DNA of 64,000 nucleotides from Deltaproteobacteria bacterium (GTDB lineage Bacteria; Myxococcota_A; UBA9042; DTJE01): NCBI GenBank assembly GCA_029547805.1, contig JAKPOP010000001.1, forward strand, positions 1 through 64,000, in the 5' to 3' direction. Below, piece after piece: positions 145 through 41,982 of this stretch; positions within the stretch are counted from its first letter, which is position 1, and each line of letters begins with the position of its first letter. The notes beneath the pieces were generated by a model that searched no databases, was not told the origin of the DNA, and saw only the letters and a program-made list of their open reading frames with translations. A program made the translations under genes and the position numbers.

Positions 145-170
145 CTCCGAACGGCATGTGACCGAGTGCG

Positions 171-1736
<1,566 letters not shown>

Positions 1737-1884
1737 CGGGCGACCGGAAGGTCGTCCCGATGGGGTCTCCTGGCACTGCTATCCAGTTTTCAACGAGCGA
1801 GGCTTGGGCCTCGTTCTTTGAAGACTGGAGTTGCCCGCGGGGCTGATCTTCGCAGGTCCTTGATGGCCGCATCGGCCTGGCTCA

Positions 1885-1958
1885 GGGCCTGTAGCTCAGA
1901 TGGCTAGAGCACGCGCCTGATAAGCGCGGGGTCGGCAGTTCGATTCTGCCCAGGCCCA
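1885..1958 (+). tRNA. tRNA-Ile (GAT anticodon)
   Basis: A cloverleaf can be drawn. The acceptor arm is GGGCCTG/CAGGCCC, the anticodon loop CTGATAA carries GAT at 1919-1921, and the T-arm loop contains GTTCGATTC. The gene is 74 bases long with discriminator A, and no CCA is encoded. Its place in the 16S-23S spacer directly before tRNA-Ala is the classic bacterial order. Confidence 0.97.
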
Positions 1959-1995
1959 CCCGTGACGGGGATCGGCATCGGCCGCTTTCCCAATC

Positions 1996-2068
<73 letters not shown>

Positions 2069-2160
2069 CCCCGCGAGCGCCGACGGCATGTCGCCGTCGC
2101 CCGGTTTTGGTCTTTGACAAGTGAACCTGTTGATGCAATGACCTTGGTCACAACACCCAA

Positions 2161-5215
<3,055 letters not shown>

Positions 5216-5270
5216 TCGGTGTTGCGGCCAAGGTCATTGCATCAACGCGTTCCCTTGTCGTTCCAGACGA

Positions 5271-5391
5271 GGGGCTGGTGACCATACCGGAAGGGCCATA
5301 CCTGATTCCATCCCGAACTCAGAAGTCAAGCCTTCCAGGGCCGATGGTACTGCCGGGGGGACCCGGTGGGAGAGTAGGACGTTGCCGGCCC
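5271..5391 (+). rRNA. rrf: 5S ribosomal RNA
   Basis: About 120 bases, containing the conserved CCATCCCGAACTCAGAAGT segment at about 5308-5326. The 5' GGGGCTGG and 3' CCGGCCCC ends pair as helix I. It lies 67 bases after 23S and is directly followed by a T-run. Ends may be off by a base or two. Confidence 0.93.
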
Positions 5392-18348: not shown

Positions 18349-19356
18349 CTATCGGATGCCCGGGGGATCGTCAAAAGGGACGGCGGCCAGTTCCTGGTCT
18401 CCGAAGGCCTCGAAATACTCCCGCCAGACCCCTTCGCAATCCCCCTTCCAGGAACAGGGGGAGCAGGCGGGAGGGTGGACCTTTCCCTCGACGGTCCGGT
18501 CCCGGGACCAGTCCCGAGGGGCCTGGTCCAGCTGGTGCACCTCGCTCCGGACGTGGGCCCGGTAGTGCCACTCGCTGGCCTGCCGGGCCCGGGACCCCAG
18601 CAGGCACAGGGGGATGGCCTCGGTGACCGCCTCGCATCCCCGGCGTTCCAGCAGGTCCAGCACCTCCAGGACCCGGGGCACCGCGTCGCGGTACCGGGGG
18701 ACCACCGCCTCGAACTCCCGTCGGGCGTTTCCGAGGGCGTGGGGGAAGGTCCAGTTGAACCGTCGCACCCCCAGGTCCGCGAAATCCCTGGCGATGTCCG
18801 ACAGGTCGTCCAGGTTCCGCCGGGAGATCACGGTCTTCAGGGTCACTCGTTCCCCGGCCTCCAGGAGTCCCCGGACGGCCTCCCGGGTCTGCAGGAAGGA
18901 CCCGGGGGCCCGGGTCACCGCGTCGTGGACCTCCGCAGAGGCTCCGTGGACCGCCACGACGAACCGGACCTCCAGGCCCGCCAGCCGATCCCGGACCGCA
19001 GGGATCGACAACAGCCGCCCGTTGGTCTGGAGCCCCACCCGGAGACCCAGGGCCCGGGCGGCCCGGACCAGTTCCGGAAGGTCCTTCCGCAGCGTCGGTT
19101 CCCCGCCGGTGAACGTGACCACCCGAATGCCGCGCCGGGCGGCGTCCTGGATCTCCCGGGCCATCTCCGCGGTGCCCCGCCAGTCCCGGCCCTTGCGGCG
19201 AATCGCCTCGTCGCGCTGGTCCGCGATCACGCAGTGGATGCAGCAGTTGTTGCAGGCGTAGGACATCTTGATGTCCAGATGGGTCACGGCGCCCGGTTCC
19301 GGCGCCGGGCCGTTTCCGTGGCCGTCGTGATCGGGGGGCGGCCGATCGGGGGTCAC
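18349..19356 (-). CDS. Radical SAM enzyme, PqqD-partnered
   Basis: A 335-aa protein. The CxxxCxxC motif lies in YACNNCCIHC and the SAM-binding motif in TFTGGEPTLRKDL. The C-terminus has a short auxiliary-cluster type motif (ACSPCSWKGDCEGVWREY: C-x2-C-x5-C). The start is GTG at 19356, overlapping the galT stop and preceded by GGGAGGTCC. Downstream lies the PqqD-like gene, the common arrangement for a peptide-modifying radical SAM enzyme and its recognition protein. It is distinct from the SPASM enzyme at 8877-9953, so the locus would have two radical SAM enzymes. The product of its chemistry cannot be read from sequence. Confidence 0.83.
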   Translation of the reverse strand: MTPDRPPPDHDGHGNGPAPEPGAVTHLDIKMSYACNNCCIHCVIADQRDEAIRRKGRDWRGTAEMAREIQDAARRGIRVVTFTGGEPTLRKDLPELVRAARALGLRVGLQTNGRLLSIPAVRDRLAGLEVRFVVAVHGASAEVHDAVTRAPGSFLQTREAVRGLLEAGERVTLKTVISRRNLDDLSDIARDFADLGVRRFNWTFPHALGNARREFEAVVPRYRDAVPRVLEVLDLLERRGCEAVTEAIPLCLLGSRARQASEWHYRAHVRSEVHQLDQAPRDWSRDRTVEGKVHPPACSPCSWKGDCEGVWREYFEAFGDQELAAVPFDDPPGIR

Positions 19357-20375
19357 GGCCGGACCTCCCGGAGGAAGCGGGCGGCGTCCTCGGGGGGCGT
19401 TGGGTTGATGTAGAAGCCGCTGCCCCACTCGAAGCCGGCGGTCTTGGTCAGGCGGGGCAGGATCTCGATGTGCCAGTGCCAGTCCATCTCGATGGTGGAC
19501 CAGTACCCCGCCCGGCGCTGCTGCAGGTAGTAGGCCGGCGCCGTGTGCAGGATGAAGTTGTACGGCGGGTCGTCGAGGGCCGCCTTCATGCGGCGGATCA
19601 CGTCCCGGAGATGGCGGGCCAGGGCCATCGCGAGCCCGTCGTCCATCGTGGCGTAGTCCGCCTGATGCCGCACCGGCGCGATGGTCATCTCGAAGGGGAA
19701 GCGGGAGGCATAGGGGCACCAGGTCACGAAGTCCGAGTCCTTCGCGACGATCCGGGACTGGGTGTCCAGTTCCTGGGCAATGATGTCGCAGAAGATGCAC
19801 CGCTCCTTCACCGCGAAGTGTTCCCGGGCGCTGGCCAGCTCCATCGAGACGGTCCGGGGGGTCACCGGGGTCGCGATCAACTGGGAGTGGGGATGCTCCA
19901 GGGAGGCGCCCGCCGCGGCGCCCCGATTCCGAAAGATCAGGATGTAGCGGAACCGGACGTCCCGCTGGAGGTCCAGGATGCGCTCGCGGTACATGCGGAG
20001 CACGGCGGCCACCTGCTCCACCGGGAGGTCCGACAGGTCCAGATCGTGCTCCGGGGTCTCGATGATGACCTCGTGGGCCCCGATGCCGTTCATGCGGTCG
20101 TACTGCCCTACGGCGGCCCGTTCCAGGTCCCCCTCGATGCGGAGGGCCGGGAACTTGTTGGAGACCACCCGGACCAGCCAGCGGCCCGGGCGGGAGGGGT
20201 CCATGAAGGCCCGGATCTGGGGTGGCGTCGCCTCCTCGTGCCCCTGGCAGAAGGGGCAGGCCTCCCGTCCCGTCCAGTTCCCCTTCTCCAGGTGGAAGTC
20301 CTGAGGGCGACTGGCCCGCTCGGTGGCGATGATGACCCAGCGCTTCTGCACGGGGTCGTGGCGAAGTTCGGACAT
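19353..20375 (-). CDS. galT: Galactose-1-phosphate uridylyltransferase-like protein
   Basis: A 340-aa HIT-superfamily protein of the GalT type. Visible features are the zinc-site CPFCQGHE near the N-terminus, NKFPAL, the active-site LEHPHSQLIATP (HxHxQ), and HWHIEILPRLTKTAGFE near the C-terminus. The canonical reaction exchanges UDP between UDP-glucose and galactose-1-phosphate; divergent members act as ADP- or UDP-sugar phosphorylases, so specificity is open. The start is set by GGGAGGTTGC before ATG. It lies 31 bases after the GH57 gene and overlaps the radical SAM gene at its end, so carbohydrate and peptide-modification genes appear co-transcribed. Confidence 0.85.
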   Translation of the reverse strand: MSELRHDPVQKRWVIIATERASRPQDFHLEKGNWTGREACPFCQGHEEATPPQIRAFMDPSRPGRWLVRVVSNKFPALRIEGDLERAAVGQYDRMNGIGAHEVIIETPEHDLDLSDLPVEQVAAVLRMYRERILDLQRDVRFRYILIFRNRGAAAGASLEHPHSQLIATPVTPRTVSMELASAREHFAVKERCIFCDIIAQELDTQSRIVAKDSDFVTWCPYASRFPFEMTIAPVRHQADYATMDDGLAMALARHLRDVIRRMKAALDDPPYNFILHTAPAYYLQQRRAGYWSTIEMDWHWHIEILPRLTKTAGFEWGSGFYINPTPPEDAARFLREVRP

Positions 20376-20382
20376 GCAACCT

Positions 20383-20399
20383 CCCGAAACGGTTTCGGG
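20383..20399 (-). promoter_or_regulatory. 17-bp palindrome before galT
   Basis: CCCGAAAC-G-GTTTCGGG is a perfect inverted repeat in the 31-base gap between the GH57 stop and the galT start, directly against the galT ribosome-binding site. The GAAACSGTTTC-like core resembles LacI/GalR-family operators, which fits a sugar gene. It could equally act as an RNA hairpin covering the Shine-Dalgarno. No LacI-family gene is in the window. Confidence 0.45.
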
Positions 20400-20406
20400 G
20401 CCCCTG

Positions 20407-22530
20407 TCATGCACTCCAGCTCGAGAGGGCCAGGCCCACCGGATCCACCTGGATCACCACGGATCCCTCCCAGGGGAAACGCTCTTCAGGCAGCGATCCC
20501 TGGCCCATCTCCACGAAGAATTCCACCGTCAGGGGGCCCGGCCGCGAGTCCTGGAAGAAGGACAGCGGGAGGGCCGCCTCCATCGTCTCCTCCACGGCGA
20601 TCCGGATCCCCTCCGGGGTCTCCCTCCCCGGACTCTGGAATGTCCCCTGGCATCCGTCCTGCTGCCGGGTCACCTCGAGGGTGGCCTCGACGGGCCGGCG
20701 GAAGCGCACGCGGGCCCATTGTCCCGGTTCCAGCAGGCCGCTGCCATGGAATCCCTCGACCCGCAGGTAGAAATTCCGGTGGTCATAGCCGAAGCGGACC
20801 ATCGAGATCCGGGGATCCAGTCGGTGGATCGAGCCGTGCTGGAAGGAGGCGGTTCCCGCCCCGACCCACTTGAAAAACCCCCCCTTGCGGCCGTTGATCT
20901 CCGGGTGGATCAGGGCCGTCGGGGGCTGGATCGGCATCACCACGCGTTCGGGTCCCACCGGGCGATCGAGTGCCTCCGGCGGCGGGAGTCCCATTTCCTG
21001 GTAGAGGGCCCGGAGGTTCTCCCGGAACAGGAAATCGAACTCCGGTTCGTGGATCGAGGAGTGCCCCTCGCCGAACCACCAGAACCAGTCGGAGGCCTCG
21101 GCCCGCATCAGCAGCCGTCGCACGCGGTGCTCCTTCTCTGCCGGCAGCGGTCCGACCTGCCGGACGACCTCCAGCGCCTCCGCCAGATAGCACCAGGCCC
21201 GGTTCTTGACCGGGTCCCCGATCCAGGTGTTGAGGGTTCCGTCGATCCAGGACCCGGTGGCCAGTTGCTCCAGGGGCCTGCCGGGCCCGTGGCGCTCCAG
21301 GTACTCGGAGAAGGTGACCGGCTCGGCGAACCCGCTGTCGCAGATCGCCCGATAGAGCGCCGTGAGGAACGGATATCCGCCGCAGGGGTAGTGCTCCCAG
21401 GCATTCTCGCCGTCCAGGGCGATCACGACCACCGCCCGGGGGTCCTTCCAGGCCTCGGCCCGCTGGCGCAGTTCCTGGAGGAAGTGCCGGATGGCCTGCT
21501 CTTGGGGCCAGCGGCTGTAGACGAAGCCGATCTGGTCCGACAGGAAGTGGTCCCGGAAGAAGATGCTGGTCCCGGACCAGACATGGGGTCGCAGGCGGTC
21601 CGAGGCCGTCCAGGTCCCTCCCAGGGATCGGCGCAGGATCTCTTCGTCCGTGCAGATCCAGGACAGTCCCCTGGAGGCGATCAGGTCCACCGCCTGCTGG
21701 GAGACGGCCCCCTCGGCCGGCCAGAGGCCTCGGGGGCGCTGCCCGAAGACCTCCGTGAAGTACCGGAGGCCCTCGTCCAGTTGCCGGGCGGCCTCCTCGG
21801 GGGCCTGGAACCGGGCCGAGGGGAGTTCGGTCTCGGGTCGGGCCTCCAGGGCTGCCTGGGTGGAGAAGAGCAGGGGGAGAATCGGATGATGGAAGGGGGT
21901 GGTGGAAAGTTCCACCCGTCCCATGTCCCGGAGTTCCTTCCAGGCGGGCACGATGCGCCGGATCTGCTCCTGGCCCACCGCCACCAGCGTCTCCAGGTCC
22001 TCCTGGCGAAAGCCCCGTTGCCTGGCGGCGATGGCGGCGACCCGCGGGTCCTCCTGGAGCGTCGGGCCGCACCAGGAGAGCAGGAAGAGGACCTCCAGGT
22101 CCACCATCTCCTGGGCTCCGAACCGGTGCAGCACGGGGCCCAGGGTCGGAGACCCGTTCCGCAGCTCGTGGAGTTCCCGGTAGCGGGGAAGGCGCTGGAA
22201 CCAGACCTCCTGGTTCACGGCGAAGCAGGTCCGGATCAGGAACTGGCGGTCCGCGTCGCTCAGGACGTCCGGGTCCCGAAGCATCAGGCGCAGGGTCCGA
22301 TCCGGGAGCGGGTCCTCGGAGAGGTAGCGCTGCAGGGCCTCGAGGAGCGACGGAGTGAAGTTCGTCACGGTCCGCATCTCCGGGACCTGGCGCTGGATCT
22401 CGCCCATCTCCAGGTAATCCTTCACGCCGTGGAGCCAGGTCCAGGGGAGCATCTGCAACCCCGAACGGGGGTCCTCGTAGGAGGGCTGGTGCATGTGCCA
22501 GAGAAAGACGACCTGGAGGCGCCGCTTCAT
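20407..22530 (-). CDS. Glycoside hydrolase family 57 protein
   Basis: A 707-aa protein that begins almost at once with the GH57 signature FLWHMHQPSYED. It also contains GLWPAEGAVSQQAVDLIASRGLSWICTDE (given as a landmark; the WPAEGAVS part carries the conserved Glu), ALDGENAWEHYPCGG and a C-terminal beta-rich region. GH57 enzymes act on alpha-glucans (amylase, amylopullulanase, 4-alpha-glucanotransferase) in the cytoplasm; there is no signal peptide. ATG at 22530 gives the expected N-terminus, though an in-frame ATG at 22548 is possible. It is the first gene of the minus-strand run and diverges from cysE. Confidence 0.85.
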   Translation of the reverse strand: MKRRLQVVFLWHMHQPSYEDPRSGLQMLPWTWLHGVKDYLEMGEIQRQVPEMRTVTNFTPSLLEALQRYLSEDPLPDRTLRLMLRDPDVLSDADRQFLIRTCFAVNQEVWFQRLPRYRELHELRNGSPTLGPVLHRFGAQEMVDLEVLFLLSWCGPTLQEDPRVAAIAARQRGFRQEDLETLVAVGQEQIRRIVPAWKELRDMGRVELSTTPFHHPILPLLFSTQAALEARPETELPSARFQAPEEAARQLDEGLRYFTEVFGQRPRGLWPAEGAVSQQAVDLIASRGLSWICTDEEILRRSLGGTWTASDRLRPHVWSGTSIFFRDHFLSDQIGFVYSRWPQEQAIRHFLQELRQRAEAWKDPRAVVVIALDGENAWEHYPCGGYPFLTALYRAICDSGFAEPVTFSEYLERHGPGRPLEQLATGSWIDGTLNTWIGDPVKNRAWCYLAEALEVVRQVGPLPAEKEHRVRRLLMRAEASDWFWWFGEGHSSIHEPEFDFLFRENLRALYQEMGLPPPEALDRPVGPERVVMPIQPPTALIHPEINGRKGGFFKWVGAGTASFQHGSIHRLDPRISMVRFGYDHRNFYLRVEGFHGSGLLEPGQWARVRFRRPVEATLEVTRQQDGCQGTFQSPGRETPEGIRIAVEETMEAALPLSFFQDSRPGPLTVEFFVEMGQGSLPEERFPWEGSVVIQVDPVGLALSSWSA

Positions 22531-32433: not shown

Positions 32434-34122
32434 ATGGATCAACCGGCGCTGCTCCAGGCATTCCTGATCTCGGCCCTGGCCGTGGCCTCGGTGGTGCTGC
32501 TGAACCGCCTCCGCTTCCCGGTGGTGACGGGGCTGATGCTGGCGGGCACCCTGATGGGGCCCTACGGCCTGGGCCTGCTCCGGGACCTGGAGACCCTGAG
32601 AGTGCTGTCCGACGCCGGCGTGGTGATGCTGCTGTTCACCGTCGGCCTGGAGGTGGACCCCAAGCGCCTCAAGGCGCTGGTCCGGCCTCTGCTGGTCGGC
32701 GGCATCGCCCAGTGTGCCCTCGTGACCGCCTGCGGGGTCCTCGTGGGACCGTGGCTTGGCCTGAGCCCCGTCCAGGGGCTGCTGATGGGAGGGGCGCTGG
32801 CCCTCTCCAGTTCGGCGGTGGTCCTCCCGATCCTGTCCCGCCAGGGCTCCCTGGAGACCCCGTCGGGGCAGCAGACCCTGGGAGTCCTGCTGTTCCAGGA
32901 CCTGGCCTTCATCCCGTTGATGCTGCTGGTCTCCTTGCTGGGGGGCAGCGGGGGCACCCTCTCCTGGTCCATGGGCCTCTGGCTGATCGTCGGGTCGGCG
33001 GTCGCGATCGCCGGGGGCATCTTTCTCTCCCGGGTCCTGCTGCCCTTCCTGCTGGAGCGGGTCGATGCGACCCGGAGCCGGGACGTCTTCCTGCTGGCGG
33101 TGCTGGCCATCTGCCTGGGGATGACCTGGCTCACGTCCTCCTTCGGACTCTCCTCGGCCCTGGGGGCCTTCCTGGCGGGGATCGTGCTGGCCGGGACCGA
33201 CTATGCCCACCGGGCCCTGGGGGACGTGCTGCCCCTGCGGGGCCTGGTGACGAGCCTCTTCTTCGTCTCGTTGGGCACCCTCTTCGAGCCGGCCCAGATG
33301 GTCCGGGAGCCGGTGTGGGTGCTGGGCTTCCTGGCCTTCCTGGTCCTGGGGAAGACCCTGCTGGCCTTTCCGGCGGCGCTGCTGGTCGGGGGCGGGCCCC
33401 GGGTGGCCCTCCTGACCTCCCTCCGGCTGGCCCAGTTCAGTGAACTGGGATTCGTGCTGGTCGGGGCCGGCCTCGGGGCGGGTCTTCTCCCCGGGACCCT
33501 GGGCCAGGCGATGCTGGCGGCCGGGTCCCTGAGCCTGCTGCTGGCCCCTCTGGTCCTGGACCGGGCCGAATCGCTGGTGTTGACCCGCTGGGTCTGGCGC
33601 CTGCTCCATCGCCTGCCACAGCCGGGAGGGGCTCCGTCGGACCTCCCCCAGGAGGGCATCCAGGGGCACGTCCTGATCATCGGCTATGGGGCGTCGGGGA
33701 GGTTCCTGGCCTGGGCCCTGTCCCGGGAGGGAGTTCCCTACCGGGTGCTGGAACTCAACGCGAAGACGGTGCGTCAGGCCCGGAAGGCCCGGGAGCCGGT
33801 GATCTATGCCGACGCCACTCGACCCGACGCCCTGAAGGCCGCCGGGGTCCAGGAGGCCCGGGCCGTGGTGATCCTGATCAACGACTACCAGGCCGTTCGG
33901 CGCATCGTGCCACTGGTCCGGGGGCTTGCCCCGGGGGCCCTCGTGCTGGCTCGGACCAGGTATCTTGTCGACCGTTCCGACCTGGAGGCCCTCGGGGCCC
34001 ACCGGGTCGTCACCGAGGAACTGGAGGGAGGGATCGCGATGCTCGGGGAGGTGCTTCGGGCCCTGGGCCTCCCCGACTCGGAGGTCTCCGCCCACCAGGA
34101 CCACTGTCGCCGCTCCTGCTGA
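32434..34122 (+). CDS. CPA2 (Kef-type) cation:proton antiporter with TrkA-N domain
   Basis: A 562-aa membrane protein. About 12 hydrophobic helices span residues 1-385 (e.g. GVVMLLFTVGLEVD, FGLSSALGAFLAGIVLAG, SLRLAQFSELGFVLVGAGLG), matching the Na+/H+ exchanger fold of KefB/KefC. A cytoplasmic RCK/TrkA-N domain begins near 405 with the nucleotide-binding HVLIIGYGASGRFLAWAL. Such proteins move K+ or Na+ against H+ and may respond to ligands through the RCK domain. There is no partner KefF/G. It stands alone between the uncertain ORF and a 331-base gap. Confidence 0.88.
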   Translation: MDQPALLQAFLISALAVASVVLLNRLRFPVVTGLMLAGTLMGPYGLGLLRDLETLRVLSDAGVVMLLFTVGLEVDPKRLKALVRPLLVGGIAQCALVTACGVLVGPWLGLSPVQGLLMGGALALSSSAVVLPILSRQGSLETPSGQQTLGVLLFQDLAFIPLMLLVSLLGGSGGTLSWSMGLWLIVGSAVAIAGGIFLSRVLLPFLLERVDATRSRDVFLLAVLAICLGMTWLTSSFGLSSALGAFLAGIVLAGTDYAHRALGDVLPLRGLVTSLFFVSLGTLFEPAQMVREPVWVLGFLAFLVLGKTLLAFPAALLVGGGPRVALLTSLRLAQFSELGFVLVGAGLGAGLLPGTLGQAMLAAGSLSLLLAPLVLDRAESLVLTRWVWRLLHRLPQPGGAPSDLPQEGIQGHVLIIGYGASGRFLAWALSREGVPYRVLELNAKTVRQARKAREPVIYADATRPDALKAAGVQEARAVVILINDYQAVRRIVPLVRGLAPGALVLARTRYLVDRSDLEALGAHRVVTEELEGGIAMLGEVLRALGLPDSEVSAHQDHCRRSC

Positions 34123-34453
34123 CGGGGAAAGTCGCCCCATTGTCACGGCGCAACAACACGTCAGCATTGCGGAATCCGGATTTGTGCCGTCGATGGATCG
34201 CGGATTCGCTCCCGTTCCGCGCCGGTCCAGGTATTCGGGATGGGAAGGCGACTCCCGTTCGGAGCCGTGCGCCTCCGCCCTTGCCGCCGGTGGGGGAGAC
34301 CGGCCGGAGGGGGCGTCTTCGGTTCCGACGTCGGCCCGAGAGATGTCCTGGAGGACCTGCCCAGGCCCTGTCTCGGCGACCCCGAGGCGTCGCGACCCTG
34401 GACCGGGACGTTTGGGGCCCCTATCATTGGCCAGGTCTGGCGGATCGTGCACG
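34123..34453 (+). other. Intergenic region without a convincing gene
   Basis: 331 bases between the antiporter and a radical SAM gene. An in-frame ATG at 34193 would extend the radical SAM protein by 87 residues, but that extension is Arg/Pro/Ser-rich, has no recognisable motif and lacks a ribosome-binding site. I therefore treat it as non-coding. A TATCAT hexamer at 34427-34432 could be a -10 box but has no matching -35. I see no small peptide gene with a Shine-Dalgarno here. Confidence 0.5.
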
Positions 34454-36499
34454 ATGAAGGGCCCCGTGGTCCTCGACCGTCAACGGACGGCATCGCTCCC
34501 AACCGAGGACCTGCTGATCGTTCCCCTGGATCCTCGGTCCCGGGAGGAGGCCTCGCGGCTTCCGTCCTGGGAGGAGGTCCGGACCTTTGCGCAGCGGGTG
34601 GCTTCCGTCCCAGGGGGCCCTCTGGTGGTTCGGTTCCAGGGATTTCCCCGCTGCGTGGTCCCCGACGGGGGGTCGGGACCGGTGGCCCCCAGAACCGTCC
34701 CGGTGGCCTGCCTGGAGTGCCGGCGGCGACCTGAGTGCCCCGGTCCCGGGACGACCCGGACCCTGATCCTCGGGTGCGAGGGCCTCGCACCGGAGGCCCC
34801 GGGACGAGCCCTGATCCCGGCTCGGTTGTACCCCGTCCAGGTGCGGTCGGGGCGGCCCTTCGACCCTGCCGATTGCCCCTTCCGTCGCGGGGACCGCCCC
34901 CTGCCCAAGGACCCCTGCTTCCTCTGGACCTCCCGTTCAGGACAGGGGACCCGCTGGGTCTTCCCTCCCGGGGAGACGACGGCCTTTGACCTGGCCCGAA
35001 CCCTGGGCCGGGTCGAGGACGATGCCGGAGAGGTCCTGGTTCGGGAACCGGCCTGTGGGGACTGCCCACTGGCCCATCAATGCGGGGGGGTCTTTCGGAG
35101 GGGGGACGGTTCAGGGAACGGGATGCGGCCCCTGGAACCCGCCGATCGGGTCCTCGGTCCCTTCCGGGTTCCCGGAGTGGACCTTCCGGTCCATCGGCTG
35201 ATCCAGGAGCGAGAGGTCCGGGAGCCCCATGTGCGCCGGGTGGCCCTGGACTCCGCCCTGGGACACCTGCCCGACCTGGACTCCTTCTGGACGGCGTTGC
35301 AACGCCGGTTTCCGGACCTCGAGGAACTCCAGTGGCGGGAACCGCTGCCGGTCTTGCGGCTGGTCCAGGGGCGAGGCGGCGTCGAGGGCGCGATTCCCCT
35401 TCCTGGGGCCCTGGTTCGATGGTTTCGCCGTCATCGCTGGCGGCCGGTGGCCAGCCACCGGGTCGATCTCCGGGGACGGCCCGGGTGGCTCACGGCCCTG
35501 CGCCTCGACCCCCCGGACGTGGCCGACATCCAGAGCCTCAGCGTGCAGTTCACCGAGATGTGCATCGCCAACTGCGTGATGTGCAATGTGGCGGGTCATT
35601 TCAAGCGACCTCGGGTCCCCTTCCCGGAGGTGACCGAGACGCTGTTCGAGGTGGCCGCCTCGGGGGTCCGCAAGATCGACCTCTTCGGCGGCGAGATCAC
35701 CCTCCGCCGGGACCTCTTCCGGCTCCTGACCCTGGCCCGGGACCTGGGCATGACCCCGATGTTCGTCACCACGGGGCATTTCCTGACGCCCGCCTATGTC
35801 CGTCGCCTGGCCGAGGCGGGGTTGTCGGGCTGCAACGTGAGCCTCGACGGGTCCCGGCCCGAGATCCATGACCGGATCCGGAACTCCCCGGGGCTCTTCC
35901 GGCGGGCCATCCGCGGCCTCCGGGCCCTGCTCCAGGAGCCCCGCATCCAGGTCTCCGTCGGGACCGTGATCCTGGCGGAGAACCTGGAGGACCTGGTGTC
36001 GCTGGTCCGGTACACCGGGCGACTGGGGGTGAAGGAGCATTTCTTCTTCTTCTGCGTCAGTTCCCCGATCCTGTCCACAGTGCCCCGCTGGCTCACCCGG
36101 GACCAGGCCGCCCGGTTCGTCCGGGAGATCCTGCCGGCCATGGAGCGGGAGGCGGACCGGTGGGGGCTCCGGCTGCACCTGAAACCGGAGATCCGCCGAA
36201 GCGCCCTGGCCCCCGAGGACTGGGTCGAACCCCTGAGCCAGGGGGACTACAACCTTCGGTTTCACCATACCGACGCCCGCTGTCGATCTCCGGGCTTCCA
36301 TCCCTTCGTTGCGGTGGATCGGACCGTCTTCCCCTGCCAGGCCCCCTCGGGGATCGTCCGGGGCGGAGGGATGGGACGGATGGGACCCGATCGATCCCTG
36401 CTGGAGGTCCTCTCGGGGGAGGCCCTGGAGGAGGCTCGGAGCCGTGCCGGCCATTTCCCCTGGTGCCGCCAGTGCATCGACCCCGACGAGGTCCTCTGA
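34454..36499 (+). CDS. Two-part radical SAM protein with Cys-motif N-terminal domain
   Basis: 681 aa. The C-terminal half is a radical SAM domain: FTEMCIANCVMC (C370, C374, C377), then DLFGGEITLRRDLF. An SPASM/twitch-like end follows (C in ARCRSPGFHPFV, FPCQAP, WCRQC). The N-terminal ~355 residues match no family I know but carry two C-x2-C-x5-C motifs (C86/C89/C95; C201/C204/C210, the second followed by GG), resembling auxiliary Fe-S cluster ligands with no radical SAM core of their own. ATG 34454 has only a weak ribosome-binding site. The next radical SAM gene starts one base after the stop. Substrate unknown. Confidence 0.78.
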   Translation: MKGPVVLDRQRTASLPTEDLLIVPLDPRSREEASRLPSWEEVRTFAQRVASVPGGPLVVRFQGFPRCVVPDGGSGPVAPRTVPVACLECRRRPECPGPGTTRTLILGCEGLAPEAPGRALIPARLYPVQVRSGRPFDPADCPFRRGDRPLPKDPCFLWTSRSGQGTRWVFPPGETTAFDLARTLGRVEDDAGEVLVREPACGDCPLAHQCGGVFRRGDGSGNGMRPLEPADRVLGPFRVPGVDLPVHRLIQEREVREPHVRRVALDSALGHLPDLDSFWTALQRRFPDLEELQWREPLPVLRLVQGRGGVEGAIPLPGALVRWFRRHRWRPVASHRVDLRGRPGWLTALRLDPPDVADIQSLSVQFTEMCIANCVMCNVAGHFKRPRVPFPEVTETLFEVAASGVRKIDLFGGEITLRRDLFRLLTLARDLGMTPMFVTTGHFLTPAYVRRLAEAGLSGCNVSLDGSRPEIHDRIRNSPGLFRRAIRGLRALLQEPRIQVSVGTVILAENLEDLVSLVRYTGRLGVKEHFFFFCVSSPILSTVPRWLTRDQAARFVREILPAMEREADRWGLRLHLKPEIRRSALAPEDWVEPLSQGDYNLRFHHTDARCRSPGFHPFVAVDRTVFPCQAPSGIVRGGGMGRMGPDRSLLEVLSGEALEEARSRAGHFPWCRQCIDPDEVL

Positions 36500-36500
36500 G

Positions 36501-38420
36501 ATGATCCCCCCGGCGGGTCCCGACGTCCTCTGGCTGCAGGCCCTCCATCGGGTGGAGCCGCACCAGTTCAACTCCTTCTACCGGCGCACCCGGGTGATCC
36601 GCCGCCGGCCAAGGCCCCTGCCGCCCCAGGTCTTCGTGGAGGTGACCCGTTCCTGCCCCTTCCGATGCGCCTTCTGCATGGCCTCGGCCACCCGGGGCGG
36701 GGGCCACGTGCCCCTGTCGGCCCTGGAGGCCCTGTTCCAGGCCCTCCGGGGAATTCCCCGGCTGGTCCTGATCGGGGGGGAACCCACCGTGCATCCCTCC
36801 TTCCCGGCCCTGCTGGAGCTGGCACGACGGACTGCCGCCGAGGTCGAGGTCTTCACGAACGGCCTCCCCTTCCTGCGGGACGACCCGGGCCTCCTGGGGA
36901 CCGGGGTCCGGTGGACCCTCTCGGTGGACCGGTTTCACCGGGAGGAGTTCGGTCCCTCGCGCTTCGAGGCGATGCTCCAGCGCGTCCTGGCGATGCGGGA
37001 TCGGGGCCTTCCGGTGGCCTTCAACCTCACAGGCCCGGAGTTTCATACCGTGGGCTATGTGGACGCCGACACCGTGGCCGGCATGATGGGCGACTTCTCG
37101 GATCGCCTCCGGGAGGACTTCCTGGCGAGCCTGCATCGGGGCGATACGGACCTCCGGTTCCTCTTCAATCCCGTGGTCTGCACCGGGGACGGTGTCCTGC
37201 AGCCGCAGGCGGAGGCCCCCTTCCTGGAGGACCTCCTGTGGCCCTCCGATCTGGTCTTTCGCCACGACGGCCCCGGCTGGCGCATCCTCTCGGACCTGCC
37301 CTCGCTCTGGACCGCCGAGGAGGAACCGGCCGTCACGGTGGGGCGCTGGAGGTCCGGGGATCCCCCCGGCTCCTTGACCCTCGGGTTCGTCCAGGGGGCC
37401 CTGGACCTCCAGGCCCTGGGCCTGCCTCCAGGGCCCGTGCTGCGGCGGCTGGCCTCCCTGGTGACGCCTCCCGGCGCGTCGCTTCCCGACTGCCCCTTCC
37501 CCCCGGGCCCGCTCCCCCGGGAAGACCCGTTGTGGCAGGCCCTGGAAGAGGCCTCCGACGGGGACTTCCCCGGGGTCCTCCAGGGGGCCCGGGCGCTGCG
37601 GGCCCTGGCCTTCGGGAGCCCCGACTGGCTGGACGACCGGCTCGCGGAGGCCCTGTTCCGTCTGGCCAACGGGATTCCCCGGCGGGCCTTCGAGGTGGTC
37701 CGTCGAAACCAGTTCAGCCCGGTCCACGGGCCGGTGATCCGTCGCTGGCTCACCAGGATCGAGTCCACCCTGCCCCGGTCCTGGCGCGACACCCTCCCGG
37801 GCATCGTCGGGCCCCTGGAGGCCCTCTTCCTCGATGGGGACCGTCCAGCCTTTCCTTATGACCTCGGCCGCCGGCGCTATTTCGGCCGGGTCCTCCAGGA
37901 GGAGCCCGAGGACCTGCGGCCCCTGGGGAGTCGGCGCCAGTCGGACCTGGAGGTGCGGCTGTTCTGGACCGAGGGCAGGCCCCGGGTGGTCCTGGAGGGG
38001 GTTCGGCCGCTGTCGGGGGCTCCCGTCAGTCGGTCCCGGCTGGTCCGTGCGATCGAGGCCCTGCGGCGGGCTCTCGGGGAGCGCCTCCCGGCGGCCTGGG
38101 TCACTGACGCCCTGACCCGGCTGGGGGTGGTCCTGGGCCAGAAGGGTCACCCGTTGGCGGCCGATTGGCCGGACCTCTCGGGACCCGCCGTTGAACCGCC
38201 CGTTCGCTCGAGTGCCGTGGAGACCTTCGAGAGGGCCTCGTTCCATCGGGGCCGCAACGACTTCCTCTACCACTCGGTTCCGCTGGGCGCCGCCCTCGAA
38301 CGCCTGGATCTTCCGGGCCTGGGATGGCCTGACGGTGCGGAACTGGTCCGGCGCCTCCGGTCGGTCCGGGCGGCCGGGACCCCGCCGGAACCCTCGTGGG
38401 GGAACTCTGGGGAGGGGTAG
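36501..38420 (+). CDS. Radical SAM protein with long C-terminal extension
   Basis: 639 aa. The radical SAM core is N-terminal: EVTRSCPFRCAFCMASATRGGG (C52, C56, C59, given as a landmark) and LVLIGGEPTVHPSF (GGEP 92-95). Residues ~280-639 form an Arg/Pro/Leu-rich extension of unknown function without cysteine-cluster motifs. The gene begins immediately after the previous radical SAM gene, with GAGGTCCTCTGAG before the ATG, so the two are probably co-translated and act together. No PqqD-like, peptidase or precursor gene is visible beside them. Downstream it abuts the convergent envelope operon with one base between stops. Confidence 0.77.
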   Translation: MIPPAGPDVLWLQALHRVEPHQFNSFYRRTRVIRRRPRPLPPQVFVEVTRSCPFRCAFCMASATRGGGHVPLSALEALFQALRGIPRLVLIGGEPTVHPSFPALLELARRTAAEVEVFTNGLPFLRDDPGLLGTGVRWTLSVDRFHREEFGPSRFEAMLQRVLAMRDRGLPVAFNLTGPEFHTVGYVDADTVAGMMGDFSDRLREDFLASLHRGDTDLRFLFNPVVCTGDGVLQPQAEAPFLEDLLWPSDLVFRHDGPGWRILSDLPSLWTAEEEPAVTVGRWRSGDPPGSLTLGFVQGALDLQALGLPPGPVLRRLASLVTPPGASLPDCPFPPGPLPREDPLWQALEEASDGDFPGVLQGARALRALAFGSPDWLDDRLAEALFRLANGIPRRAFEVVRRNQFSPVHGPVIRRWLTRIESTLPRSWRDTLPGIVGPLEALFLDGDRPAFPYDLGRRRYFGRVLQEEPEDLRPLGSRRQSDLEVRLFWTEGRPRVVLEGVRPLSGAPVSRSRLVRAIEALRRALGERLPAAWVTDALTRLGVVLGQKGHPLAADWPDLSGPAVEPPVRSSAVETFERASFHRGRNDFLYHSVPLGAALERLDLPGLGWPDGAELVRRLRSVRAAGTPPEPSWGNSGEG

Positions 38421-38421
38421 G

Positions 38422-39114
38422 TCAGAGGAGCCACCAGACGTCCACCACCGGCCAGACCGGCAGGCGCAACACCCGGCTCCCGGTGCCGATCTGCAAGGGG
38501 AATCGCCCTGCCGCGATTCCGACCGTGATGCGCACCTGGTCCCAGGCGTGGCCGTAGGTGATGACCCCCGTGGGGACCTCGAAACCCGCACCGCCCCCCA
38601 TCCAGCGATCCTGCACGGTCACCTGCAACAGGTCCGAGGGACCCAGCAGCAGGTTCATCCCCAGTCCCGCCTGCACCCCGTGGCGGATCGGCGAGAGGTC
38701 CATCGCGTACCCCGCCTGGAAGGTCAGGGAGACGGTCCGGCCTGCGGCCACGCTCAGCGCTGGCCACAGGGACAGGCTCCCGGGGATCTCGCCGGAACGG
38801 GATCGCAGGAAGGTCTGGAGGTAGGAGGCGTTGAGGGCCAGGGCCACCGGGTTCCGGTCCAGCACCTTGCCCTTCAGGGTCACGTTCGGGGTCAGCAGCA
38901 GGTCCAGCACCGGGTGGGTCGAGAGGGTCAGTTCGTCGATCACCCCATACTGGAGCGGACTGACGAGGCCGACGGCCAGTTCCCCCTCGTCCAGGGTCCA
39001 GGCCGTGCCCTGGACCACCCGCCGAATGGGGCCATAGTCCCCCCGGGCGGGTTCCGGCCCAAGCGCCAGGGCCGCGCAGACCAGGACCCATGCCCGGGGG
39101 CGGGGGTGCTTCAT
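38422..39114 (-). CDS. Predicted outer-membrane/periplasmic beta-barrel protein
   Basis: 230 aa with a signal peptide (ALALGPEPARG cleavage region). The rest shows alternating hydrophobic/polar strands, e.g. AVGLVSPLQYGVIDELTLS, VSLTFQAGYAMDL and QVRITVGIAAGRF, typical of a small barrel. No family name can be given. It overlaps the IgGFc-binding-like lipoprotein by ATGA and ends the five-gene envelope operon. The C-terminus is WWLL rather than a terminal Phe, so placement in the outer membrane is inferred. Confidence 0.6.
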   Translation of the reverse strand: MKHPRPRAWVLVCAALALGPEPARGDYGPIRRVVQGTAWTLDEGELAVGLVSPLQYGVIDELTLSTHPVLDLLLTPNVTLKGKVLDRNPVALALNASYLQTFLRSRSGEIPGSLSLWPALSVAAGRTVSLTFQAGYAMDLSPIRHGVQAGLGMNLLLGPSDLLQVTVQDRWMGGGAGFEVPTGVITYGHAWDQVRITVGIAAGRFPLQIGTGSRVLRLPVWPVVDVWWLL

Positions 39115-41303
39115 GGCGCCGGGGGCTCCTCCTGCACGATCTTCAGGTCCTCCAGGTTCAATCCCGCGGGGTACCCGTAGGACACGTAGCGGTCGTAGCC
39201 ATAGACGATGGCCCCGAAGGGCTTCGCGCACTGGGCCCGGTGGACCCCGTCCTTCAGGACGACCCGGAAGACCGACCAGGTGCCGTCCCCGATCACGGCG
39301 TACTGCCCGAAGGTCGGCCCCAGTTGCCAGGGATGGTCCAGCGGCGGGTCCTGGGAGGCCATCTGCTGGAGGATGTCCCGGGCCGGGCGGAAGGTCAGGT
39401 TCTCGGGTCGGACCTCCTGTCCGTCCAGCCACACCGGCTCCCCCGTCTCGACGATGAGGTTCACGGCGTCGAAACGGTACTTGTCCGGGGTCAGGAAGAC
39501 GTACTCGGTGCGGAACTGCTCGATGGGGACCGCCAGCAGGAACGACGGGTCCCCGGTCCCGGCATCGGCGGGGTCCTTGAGGCCCTGGTTGGGATTCGGG
39601 GCGTCCTGGGCCTGGAGGAACTGCCCCACCAGCACGGGGCGGTTCGCCCGGACCTGGAAGTCCTCGTTGGACTCGAAGTCCACCCATTCGCCCCGGTTCA
39701 GCACGTAGGTTCCCTCCCCCTGGAGCGGATAGGTGGTCACCCGGGTGTCGTCCTGGGCCGCCATGAGGCGGATCGAGTCCTTTTCGTCCTTCCTGGGGTA
39801 CGACCGGGAGACGACGTACTGGAGCCCCCAGGTCTTCACCGGAAACATCTGCATCTCCAGGTGGTCCGCGCAGCAGGTGTTGTAGTTGATGCATCCCGAG
39901 TTGTCGGTGCAGGACACCTTCCGGGGGGGGATCGCCATCCGGTCCGGCCACTCGCAGACGCATCCTCCCTGGGCACAGGACATCCAGTCCTGGTAGCCCT
40001 GGCAGCCTCCTAGAGGGCAGCAGTGATTGGTGTTCGGTGCGTTCGAGGCCTCGCTGCCCCCGAAGACCGCCACGGGGTGGTTGGCATAGACCACGGACCC
40101 CGTCAGGTCGGCTCCGTAGGCGTTGGTCTCGATGTTCAGCACGTCGTACTGCTGCAGCGTGAAGGTCCGACTCTCTCCTGGTGCCATCGCCGGGATGGCG
40201 TCTCCGTTCCAGGTGCGGCCCGACAGGGTGGGGGCCGACACGGTGGGGGCCGTGACCTGCACGTACACCTGGGTCTCGTTGCGGTCCACGGCCACGACCG
40301 TCAGGAAGCCCTTCAGGTCCTGGAAGGTCTGCTCCCGGGTCATCACCAGGTAGGCCTTGCCGAGGGCGTTGGTGGGCAGCAGGATGCTCGCGTCGTTGCT
40401 GTAGACCCCGACGTTCTCCAGGGGGTTGAACTGGTAGGCGGTGATGGGGATGCTGGACTTCACCCGGAAGGCCTGGGGCTTCAGGGAGGTGAGGTCCACG
40501 TCCATCTGGAAGGTCTGGGTGCACGCGGACCCGGGGTAGGTCTCGCCGGGGCCGTTGGTGCAGGGTTCGCAGCCGTCGGTGGGGAAGAAGCGCGGCAGGT
40601 TGAAGACCCGGAGACCCAGGGGCGGGATCGGGTCCCGGGGCAGGGGGTTGCAGCGGGAGTCGTGGAGGACCTCCCCGAATGCCGTGAAGATCTGGACCGT
40701 CGCCGGAAAGCGGTCGCTGGGGTTCGACACGACGATGGCGAACTGGGAACCGGCGGCATCCAGGTAATTGCCCTCCCCGGCGCTGACCATGGCATTGTCC
40801 AGGTCCACGCCCCAGTACTCGCAGCCGATGTAGGACGAGAGTTTGTCAGCCAGTTCGCACAACCCGATGCAGACCCCGTTCCGGCAGACCTTGCCGGTGG
40901 TCTCGGGGGCGCAGTCCTGGGCCACTTCCCAGCGGCTCCCGGTGGCATCGCACCGGACCACCGTCTCGTCGTTCAGGCAGGACAGGCGTCCCGGGATGCA
41001 GGAGGTGCATCCCACCGCGGGGTCCTGGCAGATGCTGTCGCCCGTGCAGGCCCGGACGGTGTACCCGGTGCCCTCGGCGTTGCACACCACCTCGCCCCGG
41101 GCGTCGTCGGAGCACTGGAGCCTGGTTCCGGGCACGCAGACCGGGAACTCTCCGGGCCTCTCGTCGGTCGCTTCTGCTGCTGCGTCCGGGGGGCCATCTG
41201 CGCTCCCGACGTCCTCCGGACCTCGGGAGTCCGCCCCGTTCCCGCCGCCGCCGTTTCCGCAGGCGACCCAGAAGGTACCCAGGACCAGCCAGCCGCGTCT
41301 CAA
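39111..41303 (-). CDS. IgGFc-binding-domain lipoprotein
   Basis: 730 aa from a TTG start preceded by AGGAGCGGG. The short lipoprotein signal ends WVA-C (Cys15), followed by a Gly/Asp-rich linker. A Cys-rich section (~50-150) has repeated CxxxxxxC elements. The main body (~150-720) matches the IgGFc-binding protein N-terminal domain pattern: YWGVDLDN, FAIVVSNPSD, SSIPITAYQFNPLENVGVYSND, SNDASILLPTNALG, GSVVYANHPVAVFGG and RPVLVGQFLQ. This domain is widespread in large surface proteins of Myxococcota-like bacteria; IgG binding itself should not be assumed. It is coupled by ATGA to the barrel gene downstream. Confidence 0.8.
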   Translation of the reverse strand: MRRGWLVLGTFWVACGNGGGGNGADSRGPEDVGSADGPPDAAAEATDERPGEFPVCVPGTRLQCSDDARGEVVCNAEGTGYTVRACTGDSICQDPAVGCTSCIPGRLSCLNDETVVRCDATGSRWEVAQDCAPETTGKVCRNGVCIGLCELADKLSSYIGCEYWGVDLDNAMVSAGEGNYLDAAGSQFAIVVSNPSDRFPATVQIFTAFGEVLHDSRCNPLPRDPIPPLGLRVFNLPRFFPTDGCEPCTNGPGETYPGSACTQTFQMDVDLTSLKPQAFRVKSSIPITAYQFNPLENVGVYSNDASILLPTNALGKAYLVMTREQTFQDLKGFLTVVAVDRNETQVYVQVTAPTVSAPTLSGRTWNGDAIPAMAPGESRTFTLQQYDVLNIETNAYGADLTGSVVYANHPVAVFGGSEASNAPNTNHCCPLGGCQGYQDWMSCAQGGCVCEWPDRMAIPPRKVSCTDNSGCINYNTCCADHLEMQMFPVKTWGLQYVVSRSYPRKDEKDSIRLMAAQDDTRVTTYPLQGEGTYVLNRGEWVDFESNEDFQVRANRPVLVGQFLQAQDAPNPNQGLKDPADAGTGDPSFLLAVPIEQFRTEYVFLTPDKYRFDAVNLIVETGEPVWLDGQEVRPENLTFRPARDILQQMASQDPPLDHPWQLGPTFGQYAVIGDGTWSVFRVVLKDGVHRAQCAKPFGAIVYGYDRYVSYGYPAGLNLEDLKIVQEEPPAP

Positions 41304-41358
41304 GACCCGCTCCTTTTCACCGGCGCCCCGGCCACACGATATCGAAATGCCCCGGGCA

Positions 41359-41982
41359 TCAGAAATAGACCGTGAACCCCATCGAGGCAAAGAGGCCCCC
41401 GCCGCCGAAGCCGAACCCGAAGCCCTTCTCCCGTCCGTCGGTCACCGGCCCCGACGAGGGGGCCTGCAGGGCCACCCGGCTCTTCGTCACGAACTGGAAC
41501 AGGACACCGGTCTGGAGCGAGAGGGCGAAGTGGTCCGTGAAGAAGACCTCGGCCGAGAGGGGGATCTCCAGGTTGAACTCCCAGGCGCTGGGCTCCTTCC
41601 GCGTGTCGCAGTCGGTGCCTCCCTGGTCCCGGCACTCGCTCCGGGCCGCGGCCGTCACCGCCTCCCCGTTGCGCCATCCCACGTCGCCCCGGATCCCGAT
41701 GCCCAGGTTCACCACCTCGAACCGGGCGAAGTGGTAGGCCACCCCGAGGGCTCCCCGAACGGCGGTCCGGGGGTCCGAGTCCGTGGGCTTGAAGATGTCG
41801 AAGCCCAGCACGCCCTGGATCACGAAATCCCGCACGTGGTACTTGAGGTGGATGCCCGAGACCCCGCCCAGGGTCTGCTCGTACCCGAGGCCGAACTTTC
41901 CGTTCATGTCCCGGGCCCGTGCTGCTCCCGGGGCCGCCAGGCCCAGGCAGAACAGGGCAATCGGCAGGAATCGACGCCGCAT
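41359..41982 (-). CDS. Outer-membrane beta-barrel protein
   Basis: 207 aa with a clear signal peptide (FLPIALFCLGLAAPGAARA). Strand-forming segments such as FGLGYEQTLGGVSGIHLKYHV and HFALSLQTGVLFQFVT follow, and the terminal strand ends SMGFTVYF. A C-terminal Phe after alternating aromatic residues is the usual BAM recognition signature. A Cys pair (ECRDQGGTDC) sits in a predicted loop. GGGAGGTCCTCC precedes ATG. No specific function can be assigned; it lies between the paired barrels and the IgGFc-type lipoprotein. Confidence 0.7.
   Translation of the reverse strand: MRRRFLPIALFCLGLAAPGAARARDMNGKFGLGYEQTLGGVSGIHLKYHVRDFVIQGVLGFDIFKPTDSDPRTAVRGALGVAYHFARFEVVNLGIGIRGDVGWRNGEAVTAAARSECRDQGGTDCDTRKEPSAWEFNLEIPLSAEVFFTDHFALSLQTGVLFQFVTKSRVALQAPSSGPVTDGREKGFGFGFGGGGLFASMGFTVYF

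Follow-up and report, generated by a model that had tools for sequence, protein, structure and literature searches.

The window, meaning the whole stretch of 64,000 nucleotides analysed here, carries two consecutive radical SAM genes on the forward strand. Gene A (34454..36499, +) is an open reading frame for a protein of 681 aa, which reads as a truncated tandem radical SAM protein by comparison with orthologues (L012-L014) and in an alignment of 14 members. Gene B (36501..38420, +) begins one base past the stop codon of A and encodes a radical SAM protein of 639 aa (PF04055, E 1e-12). A KefC-like gene (32434-34122) lies ahead of A and matches its own families across nearly its whole length. 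Downstream of B, on the opposite strand, there is an IgGFc_binding match (39111-41390, -; PF17517, E 2.7e-62). The window also holds a full rRNA operon (170-5390, +) with tRNA-Ile and tRNA-Ala between the 16S and 23S genes, and an HxsC4-like radical SAM protein at 18349-19350 (-; frame 18349-20379), to which NF038332 aligned at 16-334 of 335. Beside the latter gene is a frame (19353-20414, -) whose start we take to resemble galactose-1-phosphate uridylyltransferase.

The positions and motifs put forward for A in the original prediction were confirmed. C86/C89/C95 and C201/C204/C210 are both C-x2-C-x5-C motifs and lie in residues 1-355, which have no CxxxCxxC and precede an intact radical SAM core. 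No family had been recognised for this part, and neither Pfam nor NCBIfam gave a match to residues 1-355 at E<=1; a PF04055 match was absent from residues 1-355 and from residues 1-75 alike. Ten cysteines are found in the N-terminal part (67, 86, 89, 95, 108, 141, 155, 201, 204 and 210). The others form the radical SAM core (370/374/377) and a C-terminal set (610, 628, 671 and 674). Each C-x2-C-x5-C motif possesses a fourth, upstream cysteine, C67 for the first and C141 for the second, as shown by their co-conservation in the family alignment. The first set (C67, C86, C89, C95; 34652..34738, +) is an auxiliary motif of the HxsC C-terminal type and is called aux1. The second (C141/C201/C204/C210) belongs to a domain of residues 141-214 (34874..35095, +), called aux2, which is separated from the radical SAM core by a linker of residues 225-355 (35126..35518, +) with weak conservation in the alignment and no family match. 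The core, rSAM2, covers residues 365-519 (35546..36010, +) with GGE at 412-414, and combines a PF04055 barrel (E 8.7e-18) with the CxxxCxxC motif C370/C374/C377, the combination that defines the radical SAM superfamily. The SPASM/Twitch-like tail with C610, C628, C671 and C674 (36281..36475, +) reaches 17.2 bits against the curated PF13186 (SPASM) cut-off of 21.5 in the window protein. The same model is above the cut-off in relatives G020 (44.8 bits), G012 (26.5 bits) and G045 (36.8 bits), and all four tail cysteines are invariant in 14 of 14 A members.

The chance of two C-x2-C-x5-C motifs arising from ten cysteines in 355 residues is roughly estimated at 3e-5; conservation is the stronger evidence that the motifs are real. 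Residues 1-355 are coding-like by codon-position G+C (0.79/0.56/0.81), though more weakly than residues 356-681 (0.69/0.48/0.90). AlphaFold2 models built from four-row alignments were poor, with mean pLDDT values of 44.7 for the window protein and 55.9 for the G006 protein. Foldseek matched the G006 model to radical SAM structures, the best being 7vob (BlsE) with E 2.6e-12; this result was set aside for aux2 because the matched half of the model is not indicated.

Homologues and domain order of protein A

A whole-protein search of 14 relatives returned L012 (G003), L013 (G006) and L014 (G009), with about 33-36% identity to A across the radical SAM half. Their N-terminal parts have like motifs; the G009 protein is cut and shows the second motif only. 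Among 377 genomes of the phylum, 22 had matches to a profile (A2) built on the N-terminal domain. From the A2-profile and partner-gene loci, 14 A members were collected, namely the proteins of the window, G003, G006, G009 (cut), G010 (cut), G012, G020, G027 (cut), G029, G039, G045, G046, G047 and G053. The N-terminal part is thus present in homologues, as the original prediction required of a genuine domain, with its barrel variable; no such gene was found in searches of G001, a genome of the same genus.

The tandem domain order of A homologues in other Myxococcota is an HxsC-like radical SAM unit (rSAM1), aux1, aux2 and then rSAM2/SPASM. The rSAM1 unit is intact in G020 (CNNRCLFC, PF04055 78.7 bits) and G006 (CNNHCAHC, PF04055 55.3 bits). 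The G027 protein starts at a contig edge and still has the last core cysteine (PF04055 49.0 bits). In G003 the core motif is replaced by SNNRNSFQ (PF04055 39.2 bits), and G012 and G053 possess pseudo-barrels (31.5 and 27.9 bits). The barrel is absent from the window protein, G046 and G039 when their N-terminal pieces are searched with Pfam, and is not visible in G045, G047 and G029 in the 14-member alignment. The five proteins from G039, G046, G045, G047 and G029 are referred to as the f6 group (L092 10627-12828, -; L094 214-2505; L066 8282-10303, -; L067 2413-5058; L093 10645-12804, -). A conserved stretch of a different kind (GEVRLxL...RPAF) replaces barrel and aux1 in their alignment.

The likeness of rSAM1 to the Hxs maturases was evident from NF038332 (HxsC4), which matched G020 with E 1.2e-26 at residues 6-139 and G003 with 1.4e-27 (a whole-protein value), and from TIGR03977 (HxsC), which matched G006 with E 1.2e-21 at residues 29-176. 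All three units fall below the family cut-offs, with scores far under them, and the N-terminal part of the window protein has no hit to either model. Since the HxsC4-like window protein itself ends in C-x2-C-x5-C, aux1 seems to be the normal tail of an HxsC-like unit. It is retained, with C67, C86, C89 and C95, in five of the 12 members covering the region (window, G020, G027, G003 and G006). Its fourth cysteine in G003 and G006 is misplaced in the 14-member alignment, and a smaller alignment sets it opposite C67. Aux1 is gone from the other seven and is therefore dispensable in those.

The aux2 domain

The four cysteines of aux2 are invariant in all 13 A members that cover the region; the G010 sequence ends before it. 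The conservation on which the original prediction depended is thus established for the second motif and C141 (13/13), but not for the first motif and C67 (5/12). An alignment (A5) of 14 aux2 sequences was made, in which A proteins supplied 12 and methyltransferase fusions two; G029 was omitted because it is close to G045. No column apart from those of the four cysteines is invariant here, and identity to the window sequence is 16-27%. The A5 profile matches 64 of the 377 genomes at E<=0.001. Thirty loci were returned, the first ten being known A proteins, and the other 20 (L107-L126) were examined. Three encode A proteins and 17 have the order rSAM-aux1-aux2, followed by a methyltransferase glycine motif in 16; the remaining one is cut. 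Pfam identifies methyltransferases in L070, L069 and the stand-alone aux2-methyltransferases of the window's own genome and G001. When 24 rows were aligned to A5 (three of them A proteins again), all four cysteines were present in 23; the exception, L018, is truncated where its locus ends.

The suggestion of a new Fe-S-binding substrate domain holds in part, its Fe-S and substrate binding being putative. A domain of its own contains the second motif; it lies outside Pfam and NCBIfam and outlasts both the barrel and the first motif. The aux2 profile has no match to a solved structure at E<=10, and the aux2 parts of L070, L069 and L107-L126 are covered by none of the Pfam and NCBIfam matches listed. 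In a scan of 12 loci from named genomes, the profile found no match in the nine loci other than L051-L053 (G006, G003 and G009). The earlier reading had overlooked that aux2 is invariant in its cysteines, has a fourth one and also occurs with methyltransferases, and that A has a partner gene.

Several further gene arrangements were observed. The rSAM-aux1-aux2-methyltransferase order is widespread in Myxococcota (L070, L069, L107-L126). L023 (6263-10505, -; G000:C7) from the window's own genome and L024 (6693-11034, +) from its genus mate G001 are clusters of three genes, in which one radical SAM protein is tandem, another is single, and the third product is an aux2-methyltransferase standing alone (314-aa frame). 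L068 (5124-6551, -; G053:C256) is a 476-aa aux2 frame without radical SAM core and adjoins a B12-binding radical SAM protein. L025 (7430-11886, +; G000:C11) has four consecutive radical SAM genes, each with at least one C-x2-C-x5-C.

Aux2 probably binds an Fe-S cluster. It is unlikely that aux2 (and aux1) would instead be a zinc site or be held by disulfides, with a purely structural role as a knuckle or a role in peptide binding. A C-x2-C-x5-C motif with one more cysteine also fits structural zinc, and aux2 does occur in stand-alone methyltransferases (L023, L024). However, aux1 sits at the place of the C-terminal motif of HxsC-like proteins, the adjoining modules are Fe-S enzymes, and in the 17 loci outside the A family aux2 stands behind rSAM-aux1 in one chain. 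An even less probable explanation is that the N-terminal region is a functionless, degenerate leftover on the way to a single rSAM2 protein, its cysteines kept by inertia. The repeated loss of the barrel, the absence of aux1 from 7/12 members and the weaker codon signature of the N-terminal part would agree with such decay. Against it, aux2 persists without barrel and aux1, and the invariance of its cysteines at 16-27% identity makes relaxed drift an unlikely source.

Very probable loss of the first radical SAM barrel

A decayed radical SAM/SPASM module had been proposed as one origin of the N-terminal part of A, and this is supported by the homologues. In G020 and G006 an intact HxsC-like barrel stands before both motifs, in G003 the barrel has lost its cysteines, G012 and G053 have pseudo-barrels, and the window protein keeps the tail of the unit. 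Between the KefC-like gene and A there are 331 bases (34123..34453, +), which are not coding-like (codon-position G+C 0.64/0.73/0.69), and tblastn with the rSAM1 barrels of three relatives found nothing in this gap. The 331 bases are too few for a barrel, which takes approximately 600. Residues 20-60 of A (34511..34633, +) are probably the last strand-helix-strand of the lost barrel. This assignment draws on a BLASTP match of window residues 32-71 to G006 192-231 (30% identity, E only 0.016) and on the like order of predicted secondary structure in the two low-confidence models.

A profile of the N-terminal regions of G020, G027, G003, G006 and G009, built without the window, matches window residues 76-220 at 32.7 bits and reports none of 2000 composition shuffles, and BLASTP with G027 gives E 9e-8 over window residues 64-234. 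N-terminal profiles of G012/G053 and of the five f6 proteins leave the N-terminus of the window protein unmatched; the link to these groups is carried by aux2, rSAM2 and gene B. In the rSAM2 tree the window protein branches beside G020 and G027 (86/93), rSAM1 being intact in G020, and the cysteine-less G003 together with G009 branches beside the intact G006 (99/99). G012 and G053 form one clade and the five f6 proteins another (100/100 each), and the deep branches are not resolved. If barrel loss is irreversible, at least three independent losses took place, and the best tree implies four. Under symmetric parsimony fewer changes are needed through regain of the barrel, but we consider regain implausible. 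The combined sequence evidence makes it very probable that A descends from a tandem enzyme whose rSAM1 barrel was lost.

The missing catalytic unit could in principle be supplied in trans by another HxsC-like protein, such as that at 18349-19350 (-), A being one part of a split enzyme. The rSAM1 of G006 does match the window by tblastn at 19338-18700 (36% over 215 aa, E 5.9e-21), and the genome contains further HxsC-like frames. Nevertheless, matches of the G020 rSAM1 in the window's own genome are 27-36% identical, with none adjacent except rSAM2, and even the best of them (E 5e-19 at 31%) is no clear orthologue of rSAM1, so that this arrangement is quite improbable. An assembly or start-site artefact hiding a full tandem gene is hardly credible, for all that the draft genome is in 32 contigs and a 192-residue open frame lies upstream, as this frame runs into the KefC-like gene, which is intact, a barrel would not fit into the 331-base gap and has no match there, and the five f6 relatives are barrel-less too.

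Gene B, a proposed mechanism and comparison with known systems

Gene B was found in 11 of the 377 genomes at E<=1e-30, and in all 11 it has A next to it, either upstream or downstream, or fused to it; in G010 the contig ends within A. In G053 both are fused in a single ORF of 1425 aa. The A genes of G003, G006 and G009 have no B nearby, the contigs of G009 and G006 being short, and the best matches to B in these three genomes (E 3e-11 to 9e-10) cover little sequence and are of a generic radical SAM kind. When 11 B proteins are aligned, the only conserved cysteine columns are the three of the core, with no auxiliary cysteine. An all-against-all BLASTP of ORFs of at least 30 aa from the 14 loci was used in the search for a precursor or third gene. 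Among the matches listed there is no third widely conserved partner or precursor; only A (14 genomes) and B (11) recur widely, and the remaining flank matches are overlapping shadow frames or restricted to few genomes. Cysteine-rich frames near A and B in G010, G045 and G029 were considered as precursor candidates and judged weak.

A role in anti-phage defence was also considered and dropped, as the matches of defence models to the window proteins are confined to the common radical SAM core. The model of prokaryotic viperin (pVip) gave 49.5 bits at residues 363-519, the core only, in a list without cut-off, and the NCBIfam viperin model is absent from the best 25 of 41 rows for the window protein.

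The explanation we favour, with a probability of roughly 0.6, is that A is a tandem-derived enzyme with an active rSAM2, in which the N-terminal Fe-S domains serve as electron relay or substrate dock in cooperation with B. The ancestor was very probably an HxsC-like rSAM1 with aux1 and aux2, fused to a second unit, the radical SAM/SPASM rSAM2. Deletion of the rSAM1 barrel would then have followed in the lineage of the window, with both auxiliary parts kept. Aux1 (C67, C86, C89, C95) and aux2 (C141, C201, C204, C210) may each hold one [4Fe-4S] cluster, and rSAM2 would be the working catalyst. Like SPASM auxiliary clusters, aux2 could exchange electrons with the radical centre, in either direction, or dock a group of the substrate, a role that we propose tentatively. 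The G053 fusion suggests that A and B act as a complex, which these gene arrangements make rather likely; the two would work on the same substrate, most likely a peptide or protein. A bolder and doubtful proposal is that aux2 might be an undescribed Fe-S module that Myxococcota exchange between enzymes of the radical SAM and methyltransferase types, outliving its radical SAM domain. The clusters of A would then act on rSAM2 in the same chain and also, across an interface, on B, with one auxiliary domain serving two radical centres.

According to PMC10470005, cysteine motifs in extensions of the radical SAM barrel usually bind auxiliary [4Fe-4S] clusters, and the roles of such clusters are "largely enigmatic". 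The A family represents a natural experiment on this point, in which the catalytic barrel was lost several times and an auxiliary domain with intact cysteines stays. If aux2 holds a cluster, its function could be studied separately from the original barrel. The A-B pair, fused once in G053, provides a testable two-enzyme system. The literature searched, with most subscription journals outside it and PMC9062424 and PMC10470005 represented in part, describes neither this tandem family nor aux2, nor any rSAM-aux fusion that has degenerated.

Among known systems, the HxsC and HxsC4 maturases (TIGR03977, NF038332) resemble the rSAM1 unit of the homologues. The A family differs from them by fusion to aux2 and a second radical SAM unit, and in the window the barrel is gone. 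SPASM/Twitch enzymes (PqqE, AhbD, BlsE, MoaA and PapB) appear similar in sequence to rSAM2 with its four-cysteine tail, where cysteines of the auxiliary-cluster type accompany the core. For PapB, PMC10470005 reports auxiliary clusters that bind the substrate thiol and join in electron transfer. Whereas the auxiliary domain of SPASM/Twitch enzymes is C-terminal to its own barrel, A has two more cysteine domains N-terminal to rSAM2, which very probably come from a lost unit. The pseudo-SAM/SPASM family TIGR04347 shows, by its model name, that proteins of radical SAM type lacking the usual core have a precedent. It is a separate family, to which the window protein scores 58.6 bits against a cut-off of 525, and the A family joins its pseudo unit to a second unit that is apparently active. 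A parallel in domain order is found in the unnamed rSAM-aux1-aux2-methyltransferase proteins of Myxococcota, which share the rSAM1-aux1-aux2 order and the same four aux2 cysteines with the A family, but have a class I methyltransferase after aux2 where A has its second radical SAM unit.
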